Position numbers and translations under genes: made by a program. A DNA stretch of 41,520 nucleotides from an uncultured Flavobacteriaceae bacterium (GTDB lineage Bacteria > Bacteroidota > Bacteroidia > Flavobacteriales > Flavobacteriaceae). Within the stretch, counting starts at the first letter, position 1. Each line of letters starts with the position of its first letter. Under the pieces are notes generated by a model. It saw only the letters and a program-made list of their open reading frames with translations, was not told the DNA's origin and made no database searches. The stretch spans positions 1 through 41,520 of the forward strand of contig CAJXEB010000017.1 in NCBI GenBank assembly GCA_913052585.1, read 5' to 3'. Shown here piece by piece: positions 26,452 to 35,468 of this stretch.

Positions 26452-27039
26452 TTATTGTCTTCTTTTTTTTAATATATCTTCAATATCTTCAAATGTTTGA
26501 CCTTTCATTTTTAGTAGGATTAAATAGTGATATAATAAATCTGCAGCTTCGTTTTTAAAAAGTTTATCATTGTTATCTTTAGCTTCAATCACTAATTCTA
26601 TTGCTTCTTCGCCTACTTTCTGAGCTACTTTATTAATGCCTCTTTGGTACAATTTATTGGTGTATGAGTTTTTATCATTTTCATCAATACGTTGATTTAT
26701 GGTAGCTTGTAAATCATATACATAACCTTTAGCAGTTTCTTTTTTAAAACATGATGTGGTACCCTTGTGACAAGAAGGCCCAGATGGATTGGCTTTAATA
26801 AGAATCGTATCATTATCACAATCGATTTGTATGTCTTTTACTTTTAAAATGTTTCCAGACGCTTCACCTTTTGTCCATAACCGATTTTTACTTCTACTAA
26901 AGAAGGTAACTATATTATCATTTTTTGTTTTCGTAAAAGCTTCCTTGTTCATATAGCCTAGCATCAATATTTGTAAGGTATTGTTGTCTTGGATAATTAC
27001 TGGAACTAATCCGTTCCCTTTTGTAAAATTGATATTCAT
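26452..27039 (-). CDS. hisIE: Bifunctional phosphoribosyl-AMP cyclohydrolase / phosphoribosyl-ATP pyrophosphatase
   Basis: The product carries out steps 2 and 3 of histidine synthesis (PR-ATP to PR-AMP to ProFAR). The N-terminal HisI domain (1-~105) has [27 protein letters not shown] and the metal-binding [19 protein letters not shown] with later Cys in GTTSCF. The C-terminal HisE domain (~110-195) has [13 protein letters not shown] and [14 protein letters not shown] with the acidic MazG-like metal site. At 195 residues it is a normal fused form. It is the last gene of the operon, overlapping hisF by 4 nt. Confidence 0.96.
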
Positions 27040-27791
27040 ATTCTTATCGGAATTTTTTGTTTGTTTAAGTAATCTTTTAATTCAGGTATTGGTATTTCTC
27101 CATAATGAAATATACTTGCCGCTAATCCACCTGTTGCATCGGTTTTATTAAATACCTCTTTAAAGTGTTCCGAGCTTCCAGCACCACCTGATGCAATTAC
27201 TGGAATATTAACTGTTTTTGAGACTTGATTGGTGATTTCTAAGGCAAAGCCAGTTTTAGTTCCATCATTATTCATAGATGTTAGTAAAATTTCTCCAGCT
27301 CCTAAGTGTTCAACTTGTTTTGCCCACTCTAATGTTTTTAGTGAAGTAATTGTTCTACCACCGTTAACAAACACTTTCCATTCTTCGTCTTGAAACTTAG
27401 TATCTATGGCAACTACTAAACACTGCTTTCCAAATTCTTGGGCTATTTCCTTAATTAGTTTTGGTCGCTTTACAGCAGATGAATTCACACTCACTTTATC
27501 TGCACCAGCTTTAATTAAATTGCTTACATCTTCAACTGAATTAACTCCACCACCAACGGTAAAAGGAATATTAATTTCCTTAGCAATAAGGGTCACTAAT
27601 TCTATCAATGTTTTTCGATTTTCTAACGTGGCTGTTATGTCTAAAAAAACTAATTCGTCTGCACCTTGTTTTATATATTTCTTTGCCAATTCAATTGGGT
27701 CACCAGCATCTTGAATATCTATAAAATTGACTCCCTTTACGGTGCGTCCATTCTTAATGTCCAAACAAGGTATTATTCTCTTTTTTAGCAT
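27036..27791 (-). CDS. hisF: Imidazole glycerol phosphate synthase, cyclase subunit
   Basis: This (beta/alpha)8 barrel uses ammonia delivered by HisH to convert PRFAR to imidazole glycerol phosphate and AICAR. The catalytic acids lie in [18 protein letters not shown] (Asp11 equivalent) and VVAIDTKF (Asp130 equivalent). Phosphate-binding loops are [25 protein letters not shown] and [14 protein letters not shown]. Length 251 is typical. It overlaps hisA by 7 nt and hisIE by 4 nt. Confidence 0.97.
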
Positions 27792-28498
27792 AGTTTTCCT
27801 AATTGTTTTAATGTTATTTTTCCTTCGTAAAAAGCTTTGCCAATGATAGCTGCTTCACATCCAATTTCTTTTAATAATACTAAGTCATTAATACAAGAAA
27901 CTCCGCCACTAGCAATGAGTTTAATATTGGTTGTACTTAAAATTTCTTTGTACAATTCGTTTGAGGTTCCTTGCAACATTCCATCTTTTGCAATGTCTGT
28001 ACATATCACGTAGGTTACTTTTTCTTTTTCATATTCAACAATAAAATCTACCACATCTATTTTAGAAGTTTCTAGCCAACCCGATGTAGCTATTTTTCTG
28101 TTGTTGCAATCTGCACCTAATATTATTCTGTCACTTCCGTATTGCTGAAGCCATCTTTTAAAAACATCCGGTTTTTTAACAGCAATGCTTCCTCCAGTAA
28201 TCTGATTGGCTCCAGATTCAAAAGCAATTCGTAAGTCCTCATCAGATTTTAATCCTCCACCAAAATCTACATTAAGGTTGGTGTTACCACATATATTTTC
28301 TAGCACCTTATAATTGGCAATATGTTGCGCTTTGGCTCCATCTAAATCTACTAAATGTAGGTGTTGAATGCCATTGTCTTCAAATGCTTTCGCTATTTCT
28401 AGGGGATTTTCGCTATATATCTTTTTGGTGTTATAATCTCCCTTAGAAAGCCTTACACATTTACCTTCTATAATATCTATTGCTGGTATTATTCTCAT
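27785..28498 (-). CDS. hisA: ProFAR isomerase
   Basis: This is phosphoribosylformimino-5-aminoimidazole carboxamide ribotide isomerase, a (beta/alpha)8 barrel and ancient paralogue of HisF. Diagnostic residues are [19 protein letters not shown] with the catalytic Asp8, [40 protein letters not shown] with the second catalytic Asp and [12 protein letters not shown]. The 237-residue length is normal. It overlaps hisH by 4 nt and hisF by 7 nt. Confidence 0.97.
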
Positions 28499-29073
28499 AA
28501 CTCTAAAAAATATTTAAGTATTTGTTCTCCAATTTTAGCAGATTTCTCAGGGTGAAATTGAGTAGCATAAAAATTATTTTTTTGCAATGCCGCACTAAAT
28601 GGATTAATATAATTGCAAACAGCTACCGTATCCTTATTTAGTTCTGCATAATAACTGTGTACATAATAAACATCATCATTTTTATTAATTTTACTAAATA
28701 ACGTTCCTTTAACATCTGCAAAGTTGTTCCAACCCATGTGAGGAACTTTTTCTGTAGGAGGAAACAGTTTCACATTGGTATCAAAAATATTTAAACAACT
28801 TGTGTTTCCTTCTTCAGTATGGTTGCACATTAATTGTAATCCTAAACAGATTCCTAAAAATGGCTGTGTTATCGATTTAATAACTTTATCCAATCCTCTA
28901 TCAATTAAGTATTCCATAGCTGAACTTGCCTCACCGACTCCAGGAAAAATAACCTTTTCTGAATTTAAAATAATAGTGGGGTCATCAGTAATTATAGAAT
29001 CATAACCTAATCGATTTAACGCATTCTGAACCGACTTTATATTTCCTGCATTGTATTTTATTATAGCGATCAT
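28495..29073 (-). CDS. hisH: Imidazole glycerol phosphate synthase, glutaminase subunit
   Basis: This class I glutamine amidotransferase feeds ammonia to HisF. The triad is visible: Cys in [12 protein letters not shown], and His and Glu in [13 protein letters not shown]. Also seen are [15 protein letters not shown] at the N-terminus and [11 protein letters not shown] in the oxyanion strand. Its 192 residues are slightly short but complete. It overlaps hisB and hisA by 4 nt each. Confidence 0.96.
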
Positions 29074-30158
29074 AGGGTCCCTTTTGTACTTGGTATGTTG
29101 TAATTATTTGTTTTGCTTACTGCCATTTTTATGGCTTTAGCAAAAGCTTTAAAAATCGCTTCTATTTTGTGATGCTCGTTGTCTCCATCTGCTTTTATGT
29201 TGAGGTTACATTTAGCAGCATCACTAAACGATTTAAAAAAGTGCATAAACATTTCTGTAGGCATCGCTCCGACCATTTCACGATTAAATTGTGTTTCCCA
29301 AACTAACCAAGGTCTACCGCCAAAATCTAAAGCTACTTGAGCTAAGCAATCATCCATAGGTAATAAAAAACCATAACGTTCAATTCCTTTTTTACTGCCT
29401 AAAGCTTTTATAAATGCTTCACCCAAAGTAAGGGCTACGTCTTCTATAGTGTGATGCTCATCAATTTCTAAATCGCCTTTAACAATCACTTCCAAATCTA
29501 AGTCTCCATGCTTGGTAATTTGTTCTAACATATGATCAAAAAAATCAATCCCAGTATTTAGTTTAGACTGACCATTACCATCTAAGTTAATACTAACCTT
29601 GATGTCTGTTTCTTTAGTGGTTCTGATAACTGTTGCAGTTCTTGGAATTACTTTTAAGTACTGGTAAATATCTCTCCAATTTGATGTACTCAGCGCAGCA
29701 TTTTCGTTGTGATTTCCAATAAAAATACCTTGAGCTTTAAGATTAGTAGCTAGTTCAATATCTGTAGCTCTATCTCCAATTACAAAAGAGTTAGCCATAT
29801 CGTAATTGCCAAACAAATATTTGTTTAACAAGCCTGTTCTTGGTTTGCGAGTTGGAGCATTGTCTTCAGGGAAACTTTTATCAATTAGGATATCATTAAA
29901 TACTATTCCTTCATTTTTAAATGATTGAATAATTTTATTTTGAACAGGCCAAAAAGTGTCTTCTGGAAAAGATTTTGTTCCCAATCCATCTTGATTGGTA
30001 ACCATCACCAATTCATAATCTAATTCAGTAGCAATTTTTGAAAGCCATTGAAATACTCCAGGAAAATATTCTAGCTTCTCTAAGCTGTCTAATTGGTAAT
30101 CTATAGGAGGTTCTATTACTAAAGTGCCGTCTCTATCTATAAATAATACTTTTTTCAT
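29070..30158 (-). CDS. hisB: Bifunctional histidinol-phosphatase / imidazoleglycerol-phosphate dehydratase
   Basis: This fused enzyme of 362 residues performs steps 6 and 8 of histidine synthesis. Residues 1-~165 form a HAD phosphatase ([32 protein letters not shown]). Residues ~170-362 form the manganese-dependent dehydratase ([45 protein letters not shown], the two His-rich ligand repeats). The fusion is common in Bacteroidota and enterobacteria. It overlaps hisC and hisH by 4 nt each. Confidence 0.97.
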
Positions 30159-31183
30159 GACATGTTTTTTAAAGCGTTGACCAATTTTTTATTTTCTTCT
30201 GAAGACCCCACCGATATCCTAAGACAGTTGGGAACTTGTTTATTTCTATTTCTGGTAATTATTTGTTTTTTAACCAATGAGGTATAAATAGCATTTGCAT
30301 TATCCACTTCAATTAATAAGAAATTAGCATCGGAAGGATATATTTTCTTCACTACATCAATTTGTTGCAAAGCTTCTCTTAAAAGCTCTTTTTCAATAAG
30401 AATGTTTTTTAAATTATCTTGATAGGTACTTTTATTTTCAAGTGAATTTATAGCTGCTTTTTGATTCAACTTACTGATGTTGTAAGGAGGTTTTACTTTG
30501 TTGTAAAAATTGATTATTTTTTCATTCGCATAGGCCAATCCAACTCTTGCTGCTGCTAGCCCCCAAGCTTTGCTAAAAGTCTGGCTCACTATTAAATTGT
30601 TAAATTTATTAATAAGGTTGATTAGCGATTTACTATTTGAAAAATCAATATAAGCTTCATCTATAATGACTATTCCTTCAAAGTTGTTAAGTATATATTC
30701 GATGTCACTCTTATTCATTAAATTACCAGTAGGGTTGTTAGGCGAACAAATAAATAGTAGCTTAATGTTTTTATCAGATAAATAAGGTTTTACTTTTTCC
30801 AAATCAATTTGAAATTCTTTATTTAAAGAAAGAGTTATTAATTCTACATTATTGATAGCGGCAGATACTTCATACATACCATAAGTAGGAGCGAAAATAA
30901 GTGCCTTATCAACTTCAGGTTGACAGAATAATCTAAAAGCCAAATCTATCACCTCATCACTACCATTACCCACAAAAATATTTTTGTTGTTTACTTTATT
31001 TAACGCTGCTAACTTTTGTTTAAGCTCTTTTTGATAAGGATCTGGATACCTATTCAATTCTCCAAAAGGATTTTCATTTGCATCTAAATAGATTCCTTCT
31101 TTGCCGTTAAACTCATTTCTTGCACTTGAGTAAGGCTTTAATGCTAGAATGTTTGGACGAACTATATTTTCTATTTTAATCAT
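30155..31183 (-). CDS. hisC: Histidinol-phosphate aminotransferase
   Basis: This class I/II PLP aminotransferase converts imidazole acetol phosphate to histidinol phosphate with glutamate. Motifs are [16 protein letters not shown] at the N-terminus, [12 protein letters not shown] in the cofactor-phosphate loop, [19 protein letters not shown] and the Schiff-base Lys in [16 protein letters not shown], with the C-terminal [11 protein letters not shown] supplying the substrate Arg. Its 342 residues fit the family. It overlaps hisD by 8 nt and hisB by 4 nt. Confidence 0.96.
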
Positions 31184-32465
31184 TGTTAATCTCTTTTAAC
31201 CGCAGGGTTACTGCATTTTTATGAGCCATTAATTCTTCAGCTTCAGCCATGATTTCTATGGATTTACCAATGTTTTTTATTCCTTCTTTGCTTAGTTTTT
31301 GAAAGGTTATTTTCTTTACAAAACTGTCTAAGGATACTCCGCTATAATTTTTAGCATAACCATTAGTAGGTAGTGTGTGATTAGTTCCGCTGGCATAATC
31401 ACCGGCAGACTCACAACTATAATTACCTAAAAAAACAGATCCTGCATTGGTAATTTTGTCTACTAATTCATTCGCTTTTAAGGATGCAATGATTAAATGC
31501 TCAGGAGCGTATTGATTACTAAAGGATATACATTTATTTAAATCATTTAAAATAATTGCTTTGCTATTTACTAATGCTTTTAAAGCAATTTCTTTTCTAG
31601 GTAAAAGTGCTACTTGTATATTAACTTCTTTTAAACATTGTTTTATCATATTTTCGTCATCACTCAATAAAATTACTTGACTGTCTGCTCCGTGCTCAGC
31701 TTGTGATAATAAATCTGCTGCCACAAAAGCAGGGTTAGCAGTGTTGTCTGCAATTACCAATACTTCACTAGGCCCAGCAGGCATATCTATAGCCACACCA
31801 GTTTGTTGTACTAACTCTTTGGCTTTGGTTACATATTGATTTCCTGGTCCAAATATTTTATACACTTGAGGTATGGTTTCTGTTCCATATGCCATTGCAG
31901 CTACTCCTTGAGCTCCTCCAGCTTTGTATATTTTATGAATTCCAACTAGGTTAGCTGTATACAAAATAGCAGGGTTAATTTTATCATTTTTATTGGGAGG
32001 TGTGCATAACACTAACTCTTTACAGCCAGCAATTTGGGCTGGTATTCCTAACATTAAAATGGTAGAGAATAATGGAGCACTTCCCCCAGGTATATATAAA
32101 CCTACTTTCTCGATGGCAATCGATTTTCTCCAGCATTTAACGCCAGGAGTTGTTTCAATTACTTCTTCTTTGATTTGTTGTGCTTTGTGAAATTTATAAA
32201 TATTAGTATAGGCTATTTGAATTGCATCTTTTAATTTTTGAGAAACGTTGTTATAAGCTTTTTCTATTTCTTGTTGAGAAACAGTTAATTGATTTAGTTC
32301 AACATTATCAAACATCTTTGCATATTTAATAAGTGCTTTATCCCCGTTTCGTTTTACCTCATTAATAATGATATTGACTTTTTTATTTAGTTCTCCCTCA
32401 TCAATAATTGGTCTTTTAGACAGTATGGCCCATTTTGATTTATTTGGTTTGTTATACGTTTTCAT
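31176..32465 (-). CDS. hisD: Histidinol dehydrogenase
   Basis: This zinc- and NAD-dependent enzyme oxidises histidinol to histidine in two steps. The 429 residues show GLYIPGGSAPLFSTILMLG, KAGGAQGVAAMAYGT, FGPGNQYVTKAK, DMPAGPSEVLVIAD, LLSQAEHGADSQ (with the zinc-binding Gln/His) and the signature SAGDYASGTNHTLPT. It starts within the hisG stop (ATGA) and overlaps hisC by 8 nt. Confidence 0.97.
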   Translation of the reverse strand: MKTYNKPNKSKWAILSKRPIIDEGELNKKVNIIINEVKRNGDKALIKYAKMFDNVELNQLTVSQQEIEKAYNNVSQKLKDAIQIAYTNIYKFHKAQQIKEEVIETTPGVKCWRKSIAIEKVGLYIPGGSAPLFSTILMLGIPAQIAGCKELVLCTPPNKNDKINPAILYTANLVGIHKIYKAGGAQGVAAMAYGTETIPQVYKIFGPGNQYVTKAKELVQQTGVAIDMPAGPSEVLVIADNTANPAFVAADLLSQAEHGADSQVILLSDDENMIKQCLKEVNIQVALLPRKEIALKALVNSKAIILNDLNKCISFSNQYAPEHLIIASLKANELVDKITNAGSVFLGNYSCESAGDYASGTNHTLPTNGYAKNYSGVSLDSFVKKITFQKLSKEGIKNIGKSIEIMAEAEELMAHKNAVTLRLKEINND

Positions 32466-33319
32466 ATCACCATTTTATCTATTGGTATAATTAAAATATC
32501 TTCTGCTCCTGCATTTTTTAATTCATCGATGACCTCCCAAAATTGAGTTTCATCAATAACCGAATGTAATGAGCTCCAACCTTTTTCGGCTAGCGGTAAA
32601 ATTGTGGGGCTTTTTAAAACAGGTAGGATGTTTGTTACTGCTGCTATTTTTTCGTTAGGTACATTTAATAAAATATACTTGCTATTTTTTGCTCTTAATA
32701 CCGCATTAATTCTAAATAGAAGTTTACTCAGTATTTCTTCCTGTTCTTGATCTAATTGAAGTGATTTAACCAATACAGCTTCCGATTTTAAAATAACCTG
32801 TGTTTCTCTTAAACCGTTTTTAAATAAAGTGCTTCCAGAACTTACGATATCACAAATACCATCGGCTAATCCTATGTTAGGTGCAATTTCAACAGAACCA
32901 GAGATAGTGTGAACTTCTGCTTGAATGTTGTTTTTATTTAAATAGGTTTGCAAGGTATTAGGGTAGGAGGTAGCAATTTTTTTTCCATTAAAATAATTAT
33001 CAGAATCATCTTCCACCTCTTTTGGGACTGCAAGCGATACTTTACATTTTGAGAAGCCTAATTTTTGAACAATAGCTACTTGCTTTTGTTTTTCGATTAA
33101 TAAATTTTCACCTATTATGGCTATATCTACTGTTCCGTCTTCTATGTATTGAGGAATGTCGGAATTACGCAGGTATAAAATTTCCATTGGAAAATTATCT
33201 ACGACCACTTTTAATTGATCTTTACCATTGTTAATGGCAATTCCACAATCTTTTAAGAGTTTTAACGAATCTTCGTTAAGTCTTCCGCTTTTTTGTATTG
33301 CAATTTTTAGTTTACTCAT
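32462..33319 (-). CDS. hisG: ATP phosphoribosyltransferase, long form
   Basis: This first and feedback-controlled enzyme of histidine synthesis condenses ATP and PRPP. At 285 residues it is the long, HisZ-independent form: two catalytic lobes (LKIAIQKSGRLNEDSLKLL; IATSYPNTLQTYL; the PRPP loop DGICDIVSSGSTLFKNGL) and a C-terminal ACT-like regulatory domain (~210-285; YILLNVPNEKIAAV; KSPTILPLAEKGWSSLHSV) that binds histidine. It is the first structural gene, 38 nt after the attenuator hairpin. Confidence 0.96.
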   Translation of the reverse strand: MSKLKIAIQKSGRLNEDSLKLLKDCGIAINNGKDQLKVVVDNFPMEILYLRNSDIPQYIEDGTVDIAIIGENLLIEKQKQVAIVQKLGFSKCKVSLAVPKEVEDDSDNYFNGKKIATSYPNTLQTYLNKNNIQAEVHTISGSVEIAPNIGLADGICDIVSSGSTLFKNGLRETQVILKSEAVLVKSLQLDQEQEEILSKLLFRINAVLRAKNSKYILLNVPNEKIAAVTNILPVLKSPTILPLAEKGWSSLHSVIDETQFWEVIDELKNAGAEDILIIPIDKMVI

Positions 33320-33358
33320 TTTGTTTTTTTAAAAGTCTGAGTAAACCTTTGGGTATAA

Positions 33359-33393
33359 AAAAACACCGTCTGATTAACTCAGACGGTGTTTTT
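33359..33393 (-). terminator. Attenuator terminator of the his operon
   Basis: Read on the minus strand, AAAAACACCGTCTGA (33393-33379), loop GTTAA, then TCAGACGGTGTTTTT (33373-33359) continuing into further T residues. The 15-bp perfect stem with a U-run lies between the leader peptide stop and hisG, where it would block the operon when histidine is plentiful. Confidence 0.9.
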
Positions 33394-33436
33394 AGATATT
33401 TTAAATTATTACATATCCATCATCACTTCGCCTGAG
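33378..33436 (-). promoter_or_regulatory. Predicted antiterminator pairing in the his leader
   Basis: CTCAGGCG (33436-33429), which overlaps the Pro-Gln-Ala codons of the leader peptide, can pair over all eight bases (one G-U) with CGTCTGAG (33385-33378), the upper part of the terminator's ascending arm. A ribosome stalled on the upstream His codons leaves CTCAGGCG free, so the terminator cannot form. A ribosome reaching the stop covers it. The pairing is seen in sequence; its use is inference. Confidence 0.7.
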
Positions 33437-33479
33437 GGCAAATATGAAAATGATGTTGATGTAATGTTATAAAATTCAT
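33423..33479 (-). CDS. hisL: Histidine operon leader peptide
   Basis: This 18-codon ORF reads MNFITLHQHHFHICPQAK, with four His in six codons (CAT CAA CAT CAT TTT CAT), followed by TGA. It lies between a perfect promoter box and a terminator hairpin ahead of hisG, as in transcription attenuation of the enterobacterial his operon. It is unrelated in detail to the E. coli HisL run of seven His. Its role is to sense charged tRNA-His through ribosome pausing. Confidence 0.88.
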   Translation of the reverse strand: MNFITLHQHHFHICPQAK

Positions 33480-33497
33480 TATTTCTTTAATAAGGGA

Positions 33498-33505
33498 CAA
33501 ATGTA
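33498..33505 (-). promoter_or_regulatory. -7 promoter box of the his operon
   Basis: TACATTTG on the minus strand matches TAnnTTTG exactly and lies 18 nt upstream of the leader-peptide ATG, giving a short leader before hisL. A well-placed -33 TTG is not obvious; the nearest is 26 nt upstream. Confidence 0.6.
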
Positions 33506-33689
33506 CATATTATTTTGATCTGACACTAAACCAATTGTGAAATTTATAAGAAAATATTTTACTTTGAAGTCCATAATAGAAATACCATTATTACATTAAT
33601 AATAATATTTTGAAAGTATACTTAACTTATTACTGTTTTTTTTTGGTTTTTATCACATAAAAATCAGAATCAAATAAACTACTTAAATT
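33506..33689. other. AT-rich spacer between the his promoter and the rhodopsin terminator
   Basis: No convincing ORF, hairpin or repeat was seen in this stretch. Confidence 0.6.
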
Positions 33690-33749: not shown

Positions 33750-34478
33750 TTATTCACTCTTGGACTGTTTAAGTGCCAAGTTATAAATAACCAAACCAAA
33801 TCCAATTTTATTAATTGCATCGGCAATGTTATAAAAAATATCCATACTTAAACCTCCAAAAACACCTTCATACCATCCTGGAGTACCAGCCATATATCCA
33901 ATAGGATAAATAGCCCAACCAACTAATACGAACCAACAAAGGACTTTGTGTGCACTTTGAACTGAACCTCCTGCTGATTTAGCTAATTTAGCTGCACCAC
34001 CTAACCATATTTCATAAACGATTGCAAAATATGCAATACCAGAAACTAATCCCCATAATTGAGCATTTTCAGGATCTACGCCTTCTCCAAGATAACCAGT
34101 TACAAGCATTATAACGGAAAGTAAAATTAGTTTCCACATTAATGATTTTTTTGCTCCTGCTAATTTTAGAATTAAATAAAACTCTACACACATCAACGGA
34201 ACTGTAAGAATCCAATCTACATATCTGAAAAATGTTGGTGATTCCATATTCGTTGCCCAATAATCACGCATATACCAATAATGTACTGCTGCAATAAAGG
34301 TAATTAAACCCGAAACAAGAATAGAAGTTTTCCACTTTCGATCAAAATCATTCATTGAAAAAAAGAAGAAAGCAGATGCTGCCATCATGGCCATACAGCC
34401 AATAAAGAAAGTAAATCCCACATAGTCATCTGGTGCCATTTTAGGGACAATTGCAATAATTGATAATAAATTTGTCAT
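33750..34478 (-). CDS. Proteorhodopsin, green-absorbing proton pump
   Basis: This seven-helix retinal protein of 242 residues in the inner membrane pumps protons out of the cell in light. Helix C reads RYVDWILTVPLMCVEF: Asp88 (proton acceptor), Thr92 and Glu99 (proton donor) form the DTE triad of bacterial proton pumps, rather than the NDQ or NTQ motifs of sodium and chloride pumps. Met96 sits at the spectral tuning site (residue 105 of the reference green proteorhodopsin), and Leu/Met there give green absorption. His66 is the conserved helix B partner of the acceptor. Lys224 in AINKIGFGL is the Schiff-base lysine. It is divergent from blh, which makes its retinal. Confidence 0.96.
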   Translation of the reverse strand: MTNLLSIIAIVPKMAPDDYVGFTFFIGCMAMMAASAFFFFSMNDFDRKWKTSILVSGLITFIAAVHYWYMRDYWATNMESPTFFRYVDWILTVPLMCVEFYLILKLAGAKKSLMWKLILLSVIMLVTGYLGEGVDPENAQLWGLVSGIAYFAIVYEIWLGGAAKLAKSAGGSVQSAHKVLCWFVLVGWAIYPIGYMAGTPGWYEGVFGGLSMDIFYNIADAINKIGFGLVIYNLALKQSKSE

Positions 34479-34568: not shown

Positions 34569-35468
34569 GTGTATTTTTATGCTGTGAAATATAAAAAAAT
34601 AGCAATCCTAATTACATTTTTTAGCCTGTGGCTTACAGTTTACTTCGCTAGTCCTTCTCAAGAAGTATTTGCTGTTTTTCTCATTTTTTCTTTAGGGATT
34701 ATGCACGGAAGTAATGATTTGTTTTTAATTTCAAAAGTTAAAATAACCGCCAAACCCTTAAAACTTGTTTTTTTTTATAGTTCTTATGTTTTAACAGTTT
34801 TATTTGCAAGTTTTCTATTTTATTTCATTCCTATTTTTGCCTTGGCTGCCTTTATAATTTTTAGTGCTTTTCATTTTGGCGAACAGCATTGGATTGAAAC
34901 AAACACCAAAAGCGTAAATTTTAACCGTATTCTATTTCTTAACTACGGACTTTCTATTTTATTCTTACTTTTTGCTTTAAATAGCAATGCTACTATAGGA
35001 GTAATATTCGCGCTTACTGGTTTATTGATTAATGAAAGTTTGTTTAGCTGGATATTTATATTCAGTATTATTTTATTGATAATTCAAGTTATAATAATGG
35101 TATATCGTAATTACATTACTTGGCAGCAACTATTGTTTGAGTTATTTTTAATCTTAGTTTTTGCTATTGTTTTTAAAACGGCTACCCTTATATGGGCATT
35201 TGCTATTTATTTTATATTTTGGCATAGTATCCCATCAATTTTTGAACAACAGTCTTTCTTATATGGTGAGGTATCAACTCGAACTTTTATTAAATATGTT
35301 AAATCATCATTTCTTATTTGGCTAATCTCTATTAGTACAATCATACTATTATATGTATGGTTGAAAAATGAGACTATTTTTTTACCATTATTATTTGCTT
35401 TTCTAGGTGCAATAACTTTCGCACATTCATTAACCATTTCTAAAATGTTTAAAGATAAAAACAGCTAA
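34569..35468 (+). CDS. blh: Brp/Blh-family beta-carotene 15,15'-dioxygenase
   Basis: This polytopic membrane enzyme of 299 residues cleaves beta-carotene into two retinals for the adjacent rhodopsin. Family signatures are the His-containing SLGIMHGSNDLFLI in an early helix, FSAFHFGEQHWIE and IFWHSIPSIFEQQ, whose histidines are expected iron ligands, with about eight hydrophobic segments. The start appears to be a non-ATG codon: GTG at 34569 (or GTG at 34584), since no in-frame ATG precedes the conserved region. No strong TAnnTTTG box was seen upstream, so expression may rely on the divergent region. Carotenoid synthesis genes are not in the window. Confidence 0.92.
   Translation: MYFYAVKYKKIAILITFFSLWLTVYFASPSQEVFAVFLIFSLGIMHGSNDLFLISKVKITAKPLKLVFFYSSYVLTVLFASFLFYFIPIFALAAFIIFSAFHFGEQHWIETNTKSVNFNRILFLNYGLSILFLLFALNSNATIGVIFALTGLLINESLFSWIFIFSIILLIIQVIIMVYRNYITWQQLLFELFLILVFAIVFKTATLIWAFAIYFIFWHSIPSIFEQQSFLYGEVSTRTFIKYVKSSFLIWLISISTIILLYVWLKNETIFLPLLFAFLGAITFAHSLTISKMFKDKNS

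Follow-up and report, generated by a model that had tools for sequence, protein, structure and literature searches.

The his operon in the window (by which we mean the whole stretch of DNA analysed, 41,520 nucleotides from an uncultured marine member of the Flavobacteriaceae) is preceded by what is very probably a ribosome-mediated histidine transcription attenuator, a reading to which, judging from the sequence and from that of its relatives, we assign a probability of about 0.9. At this level of evidence the parts of the switch, the mutual exclusivity of its hairpins, its geometry and its conservation are demonstrated. We also find that the ascending arm of the terminator, strand C, can pair with a strand, E, close to the start of hisG, and the conservation of E at this position suggests an unstudied second layer of control. 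The components in the window are as follows.

33498-33505, minus strand: promoter-like element TACATTTG, a -7 element of the Bacteroidota type (from sequence)
33423-33479, minus strand: leader peptide ORF of 18 codons plus TGA, MNFITLHQHHFHICPQAK (from sequence and the conserved His-rich leader of relatives)
33444-33461, minus strand: regulatory codons His-Gln-His-His-Phe-His, leader codons 7-12 (from sequence)
33429-33436, minus strand: strand B (CTCAGGCG), the antiterminator arm in the last leader codons (from pairing with C and covariation)
33395-33417, minus strand: helper helix between B and C, GATAT (33417-33413) with ATATC (33399-33395) (from the fold)
33374-33393, minus strand: strand C, the ascending arm of the terminator (33393-33379) plus loop (from folds and pair tables); it pairs with B at 33385-33378 and with E at 33384-33374
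33357-33373, minus strand: strand D, the descending arm of the terminator plus U-run (from the terminator fold)
33335-33345, minus strand: strand E (TTTACTCAGAC), third partner of C (from pairing tests and covariation)
33311-33318, minus strand: segment F, TGAGTAAA of the hisG start ATGAGTAAA, complementary to E (from the pair count)
32462-33319, minus strand: hisG, first gene of the operon (Pfam PF01634 and PF08029)
26452-33319, minus strand: his operon hisG-D-C-B-H-A-F-I, 3' of the leader (from overlapping same-strand ORFs and Pfam)

A first-pass annotation, made from the sequence alone, had listed a promoter, an 18-codon His leader and a 15-bp terminator with U-run followed by hisG, and each of these is present on the minus strand; its list is incomplete in that the helper helix and strand E are missing from it. 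His residues occupy leader codons 7, 9, 10 and 12. The 8-bp segment that the annotation saw in the last leader codons does pair with the ascending arm of the terminator, CTCAGGCG (33436-33429) with CGTCTGAG (33385-33378) giving 8 bp including one G.U. The terminator (33393-33359) has 15 bp, the loop GTTAA and a U-run that reaches as far as 33357; the 3' end of E lies 15 nt 5' of the hisG ATG, and hisG starts at 33319. Pfam support covers the first six genes of the operon, with hisC matched only as a class I/II aminotransferase and hisH only as a class I amidotransferase, while hisF and hisI were named by reading frame and gene order alone. Directly 5' of the leader and on the same strand lies a rhodopsin gene (Pfam Bac_rhodopsin), with a divergent beta-carotene dioxygenase gene (Pfam BCD) beside it; the pair, at 33750-34478 and 34569-35468, probably represents a light-driven pump and the maker of its retinal.

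Relatives were compared in two samples. The flavobacterial-type set of 128 loci consists of the window, 80 named hisG loci and 47 loci of families f1 and f2; 126 of these were scored, L079 (at a contig end) and L030 (with a leader beyond the 260-nt cut) being left out. In L030 about 110 nt more separate leader and terminator from hisG than in related loci, and no E was found there. The phylum sample consists of 140 of the about 150 best hisG matches (328 genomes have hisG); because its loci come from best matches, distant hisG genes are under-sampled. L295, whose leader sequence is identical to that of L002, was not counted.

Conservation of the His codons in relatives, which the first-pass annotation had proposed as a check, is pronounced: 76 of 80 flavobacterial-type regions (the window plus 79 named loci, L079 again being left out because it is cut at a contig end) have an ATG-started leader with at least four His in eight codons, no more than 260 nt from hisG, as do, by the same strict rule, 108 of 140 phylum regions (best hisG matches). 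Shuffled regions yield none (0/800 and 0/1,400, respectively), nor does the antisense strand, and even when the rule is relaxed to at least three His in eight codons shuffles yield just 4/800 and 26/1,400. Leaders rich to the same cut-off in any one of 15 other amino acids are found in no more than 6 of the 140 phylum regions (best hisG matches). Set against the shuffles, this conservation excludes a chance origin of the leader. By a looser rule (at least three His, an ATG, GTG or TTG start, 450 nt) a His-rich leader precedes hisG in 129 of 140 Bacteroidota loci (best hisG matches), some of them doubtful; the misses comprise all loci of f19 (3), f48 (3), f26 (1) and f15 (1), two of the eight in f30 and one of the three in f10.

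Flavobacterial-type leaders contain at least four His in 115 of 126 loci and three in the other 11. The string HHHH is present in 67 of the 126 and HQHH in three (the window, L006 and L028), and the window's HQHHFH, which the first-pass annotation had set apart as a different peptide, turns out to be a variant of the usual HHHHFH and no separate design. Since the leaders otherwise vary widely in sequence (HHHHFHTCTQAS, HIHHHHTYPSR and HHLSLHHHHHVVIR, for example), the His codons are what is kept. A minimal start-stop ORF follows 3' of the leader in 49 of 126 loci. Upstream, TAnnTTTG is found no more than 60 nt 5' of the leader ATG in 81 of the 96 flavobacterial-type loci with enough sequence, compared with 4 of 96 shuffles. 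A scan for sigma-70-type promoters gave chance-level results (5 found, 3.7 expected), as one would expect of a promoter of another type.

We turn now to the competing hairpins. In the window the terminator folds at -22.5 kcal/mol (z -7.8, with 0 of 200 shuffles as good); set beside the antiterminator hairpin from B to C, which with its helper helix reaches -18.9 kcal/mol, it has -22.1; a B..C fold ended inside C is weaker (-9.4, z -1.8, 13 of 200 shuffles as good). Motifs resembling the helper helix were spotted by eye in relatives. Leader and intrinsic terminator are found before hisG in 126 of the 128 flavobacterial-type loci. B pairs with its own C in 120 of 126, defined as no more than 10 of 200 shuffles being as good, and pairing is weaker in the remaining six (12-20 of 200). 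Terminator and antiterminator pairing are thus both kept, which speaks to the other comparison that the first-pass annotation had proposed, and among the 108 loci where B was located by identity one B:C pair covaries beyond a tree-aware null in which substitutions are redistributed on the hisG tree (p<0.001; all pairs summed p 0.010; shifted-register controls p 0.49 and 0.90). In Chryseobacterium (L014, L019 and others) B lies in another register, across or beyond the leader stop codon, and pairs with a different part of C (AGACGG with CCGTCT).

Spacing fits the switch geometry that had been proposed from the window, and does so across 108 loci: between the first His codon and the start of B there are 19-28 nt (most often 25, in 63 of the 108), and the leader stop codon ends 4-20 nt past the start of B. 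The leading edge of the 70S ribosome lies about 12 nt beyond the A site, so that a stall at the first His should leave B free and a ribosome at the stop codon should cover it. On this basis, RNA polymerase would initiate shortly past TACATTTG and a ribosome would translate the 18-codon leader. Were charged His-tRNA scarce, the ribosome would stall at the first His codons, about 10 nt short of B, given the footprint of the ribosome; B, left free, would pair with C, the C:D terminator would be blocked and transcription would enter hisG. Were His-tRNA ample, the ribosome would reach the stop codon and cover B, C:D would form and transcription would stop at the U-run. Transcription-translation coupling, stalling and read-through are steps that we infer.

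The two-hairpin logic of the first-pass annotation holds as regards antiterminator and terminator, both of which are conserved, and falls short in leaving out a third conserved partner of C. This partner, E, was noticed on aligning relatives as a third copy of the terminator motif just 5' of hisG, and its sequence complements C together with the terminator loop (GTCTGAGTAAA in many relatives). In the window, none of 200 shuffles gives a C:E pairing as good; its C loop, GTTAA, costs one pair with E. At least 9 of 11 pairs with the locus's own C are present in 111 of 126 flavobacterial-type loci, and 112 pass an energy test against shuffles, with 109 doing both (L015, L092 and L122 pass the energy test only, L048 and L052 the pair count only). 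By pair count E is missing from 12 of 126 loci, after crediting shifted or partial copies in L015, L093 and L122 and counting L092, which passes the energy test, among the 12. As these loci do without it, E is dispensable.

Variants of C are matched in E: GTTTGAG/CTCAAAC, GACTGAG/CTCAGTC, GTTTGAGTACA/TGTACTCAAAC and GTCTGAATAAA/TTTATTCAGAC. For the covariation set we located E by consensus identity, not complementarity, and kept loci with at least 9 of 11 pairs. Covariation between C and E exceeds that in all 1,000 tree-aware nulls (single pairs p<0.001, 0.002 and 0.019), and shifted C:E registers do not covary (summed G p 0.48 and 0.77). On the same hisG tree, independent-pairs tests, which have low power, gave three supported pairs each. 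Read on the mRNA strand, C:E mismatches comprise 79 G.U and 3 A.C; a structure-blind MAFFT alignment of 125 loci, including those without E, gives 1,171 Watson-Crick pairs, 77 G.U, 3 A.C, 46 other and 78 gapped. Such an excess of G.U over A.C means that pairing occurs in mRNA-sense RNA. That C:E is a real RNA pairing is well supported by the covariation in these alignments.

Of 112 loci, 93 have 12-18 nt between the 3' end of E and the hisG ATG, and the others 21-33 nt; the distance from terminator to E varies more, at 10-32 nt for 75 of them and 40-51 nt for 37. Because spacing to hisG stays and spacing to the terminator varies, E is anchored to the gene start. Note that E is transcribed after the terminator and hence cannot influence that termination event.

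What else might E pair with? Its first eight bases, TTTACTCA, are complementary to TGAGTAAA of the hisG start ATGAGTAAA, with all 8 of 8 paired in 88 of the 111 E-bearing loci. In 56 of the 111 an 8-mer of C is identical to the hisG-start 8-mer; in the window the two differ, C carrying TGAGTTAA. Codon 2 of hisG is AGT in 107 of the 111 E-bearing loci (with the start of L071 corrected) and AGC in one, where AGT:AGC across the 80 named hisG genes is 358:271, a baseline drawn from hisG genes. AGT is found at codon 2 in 1 of the 12 E-less loci, a contrast that does not represent independent events because the loci are related. The preference for AGT at this codon suggests a constraint on F as RNA. 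Covariation between E and F is weak (p 0.007 and 0.028, due mainly to one column pair, with one shifted control at p 0.035), and same-letter coupling of C and F is not significant (summed G p 0.21). Taken at the sequence level, the evidence for E:F as a conserved, weakly covarying pairing is suggestive.

To compare the strands' energies we used 110 loci, having left out L071, where the match begins at residue 6 and positions are 15 nt off. Median hairpin energies are -16.5 (terminator), -14.7 (B..C) and -6.2 kcal/mol (E..F); median duplex energies are -13.6 (C:E), -13.5 (C:D), -13.0 (B:C) and -8.1 kcal/mol (E:F). In every one of these 110 loci C:E is more stable than E:F, and in 64 it is more stable than B:C. 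When the RNA ends at -1 and D is excluded, E holds C at P>0.5 in 98 of 110 loci (median 0.93; window 0.70), whereas with D allowed the median P is 0.67 for C:D and 0.11 for C:E. In the window with D allowed, D holds C nearly always, and E reaches C at P<0.001, even before the start has been made. Taken over the 110 loci, the results for RNA ending at -1 fit a relay in which E is free for the start codon when the terminator holds C, and takes C when it does not. Once the hisG start is included, the equilibrium model gives, whichever the leader state, E:F a probability of about 0.98 and C:E one close to 0; excluding D still leaves just 18 of 110 loci in which C:E exceeds E:F. An equilibrium relay through E is therefore not supported: the two leader states barely differ in start-codon pairing (over 110 loci the median difference is 0.000, with six above 0.1 and two below -0.1), and the same holds when D is excluded. 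Since equilibrium folding favours E:F, any relay through E would have to be kinetic, acting before E meets the start, or pseudoknotted or in trans. Bacteroidota mRNAs generally lack Shine-Dalgarno sequences (PMC6847099). A study of F. johnsoniae reports that initiation there is tuned by structure near the start (PMC6847099), so that an E:F hairpin could matter.

Our best guess, which equilibrium folding does not back, is that E relays the terminator's decision to hisG translation. If C were locked in the terminator, E would fold onto the hisG start and damp leaky expression; if C were not locked, E would take C while hisG is being transcribed, and the start would be left open. C would then have three competing partners (B, D and E), E would also have the hisG start, and strand exchange through B-C-D and C-E-F would transmit the ribosome's reading of the histidine supply, first to the terminator and afterwards, by kinetics, to the start. 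We put this relay, specific to the flavobacterial type, forward tentatively and at less than even odds.

There are other scenarios that might explain E. One, which we consider somewhat less likely than the relay, is that E turns hisG translation off through C:E in leaked transcripts and that the likeness of the hisG start to C is mostly a matter of inherited protein sequence (MSKLKIAI). C:E does beat E:F in every one of the 110 loci, E and F covary weakly, and the terminators of other families often end in a similar place, 10-34 nt from the hisG start (36 of 56). Against this model, D should already hold C in leaked transcripts (median P 0.67 versus 0.11 for RNA ending at -1), and AGT at codon 2 in 107 of 111 E-bearing loci suggests that F is constrained as RNA. 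The pairing might also occur between molecules, with the C strand or loop of terminated leader RNA acting in trans on E of the hisG mRNA. Such action is reported for the trp attenuator RNA of Sinorhizobium, E adjoins a start codon, and covariation is blind to the difference between cis and trans; yet D holds C in terminated RNA (median hairpin -16.5 kcal/mol) and invasion from a short loop would be needed, so that we regard trans action as improbable.

Two further readings are less credible still. C and E are inverted copies in DNA and might together form a transcription-factor operator. G.U and A.C should then be equally frequent, but the mismatches are strand-asymmetric (79 versus 3, or 77 versus 3 in the structure-blind alignment), by which we reject an operator and leave this reading the least credible of all. 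Almost as hard to credit is a His-rich ORF that happens to precede an ordinary constitutive terminator with no regulation involved: weak leaders with at least three His in eight codons do arise in 26 of 1,400 shuffled regions, but leaders with at least four are found in 108 of 140 phylum regions (best hisG matches) and in none of the 1,400 shuffles, B:C is conserved, and 126 of 128 loci have a terminator placed between the leader and hisG.

How far does this arrangement extend? Among the other 93 phylum loci (best hisG matches), 56 have leader and intrinsic terminator, and the B:C test is passed in 39 of these 56 scored loci of other families, pairing being weaker in 17. Families f4, f17 and f35 mostly retain leader, B:C and terminator in different sequence (10/10, 11/14 and 5/6 scored loci, respectively, pass the B:C test); in f17 the terminator stem ends 16-38 nt 5' of hisG. 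E is another matter: among the 56 scored loci of other families the energy test is passed by 4, and only L094 has both the sequence and the place of E, the other three matches lying within 5 nt of the start and looking like chance. L094 (G152, family f35) is of flavobacterial type, E included, whereas the five other scored f35 members are of another type, a distribution of sequences that suggests that operon and attenuator were transferred together. In the window's own genus (g1) a hisG match is found in only 2 of 19 genomes, several of which are incomplete; operon and attenuator may come and go jointly, as a cassette.

Some His leaders were found without an intrinsic terminator: 8 of 10 loci in f3 (for example L185 and L187), 5 of 8 in f8 (for example L129 and L145) and all four in f24 (L217, L219, L220 and L221). 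Several of these loci have a C/T-rich stretch 3' of the leader, and the terminator-less leaders possibly work by Rho-dependent or translational attenuation. Elements of similar layout precede other genes. Six relatives (L223-L228), of which four belong to the window's genus, have Phe-rich short ORFs followed by terminators 5' of pheA-like genes (PF00800), and these are likely Phe attenuators; inspection by eye of the region before these pheA-like genes revealed no E strand. Before an ilvB-like gene (L229) we identified by eye a short ORF in which Ile, Val and Leu abound, MLRFDIISNVIILLRET; it is followed by a terminator, which makes a branched-chain attenuator probable.

The attenuator as such is not new, since both a hisG 5' element and clues to attenuation have been published. 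The text of a transcriptome study of F. psychrophilum describes strong clues for leader-peptide attenuation before amino-acid operons and a hisG 5' element that is present in other Flavobacteriaceae genera and has no Rfam hits (PMC9723704). Like the window's element, it is structured and upstream of hisG; the text gives no anatomy and does not mention a third strand, and the supplement may hold more (PMC9723704). The first-pass annotation had called this type of attenuation classically enterobacterial, which is right as to where it was classically described and too narrow as to where it is found, with His leaders at 129 of 140 Bacteroidota loci (best matches) and the hisG element in print (PMC9723704). 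Elsewhere in the phylum, the text of a B. thetaiotaomicron transcriptome study describes leader-peptide-like short ORFs in long 5' UTRs without naming his (PMC7366714), and the text of a paper on his genes in Bacteroidota does not use the word leader and mentions attenuation once, for enterobacteria (PMC8305728). Beyond it, the text of a 2010 survey states that leader-peptide systems were known to its authors only in Proteobacteria and Actinobacteria, to which it adds bacilli (PMC2965389); the bacilli hisS/hisZ leader described there likewise has His codons and predicted attenuation outside Proteobacteria, before other genes and in another phylum. Among the titles and abstract openings listed for open-licence papers, we found none on a third strand in a his attenuator. 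What is new here is the phylum-wide count of His leaders and the third strand, E, with the attenuator itself already known for the family in outline. Bacteroidetes may be included in a survey that Lopatovskaya and colleagues published in 2010.

Rfam yields no match over the window at gathering score, and when the limit is relaxed to E 10 the interval 33270-33520 gives 34 matches, none of them the His leader (RF00514). The best sub-threshold matches there, PyrR (32.1 bits, cut-off 54) and trpB (31.9 bits, cut-off 59), cover leader and terminator and probably reflect composition and shape.

Attenuators of this kind are natural probes of transcription-translation coupling in Bacteroidota, where the first-pass annotation regards coupling as unsettled. 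E, for its part, is a concrete element that can be mutated to ask whether one chain of strand exchange controls both termination and initiation. With the enterobacterial his attenuator, hisL, the window's element shares a His leader and a mutually exclusive antiterminator and intrinsic terminator placed before the his operon; it differs in the extra strand E by the hisG start. The trp leader of Bacillus subtilis, where TRAP also exerts translational control over read-through transcripts, offers a parallel in the idea that a terminator decision is followed by a second lock at the start of the first gene. The B. subtilis leader is protein-sensed, whereas the window's leader would be sensed by the ribosome, with a second lock that we only infer.
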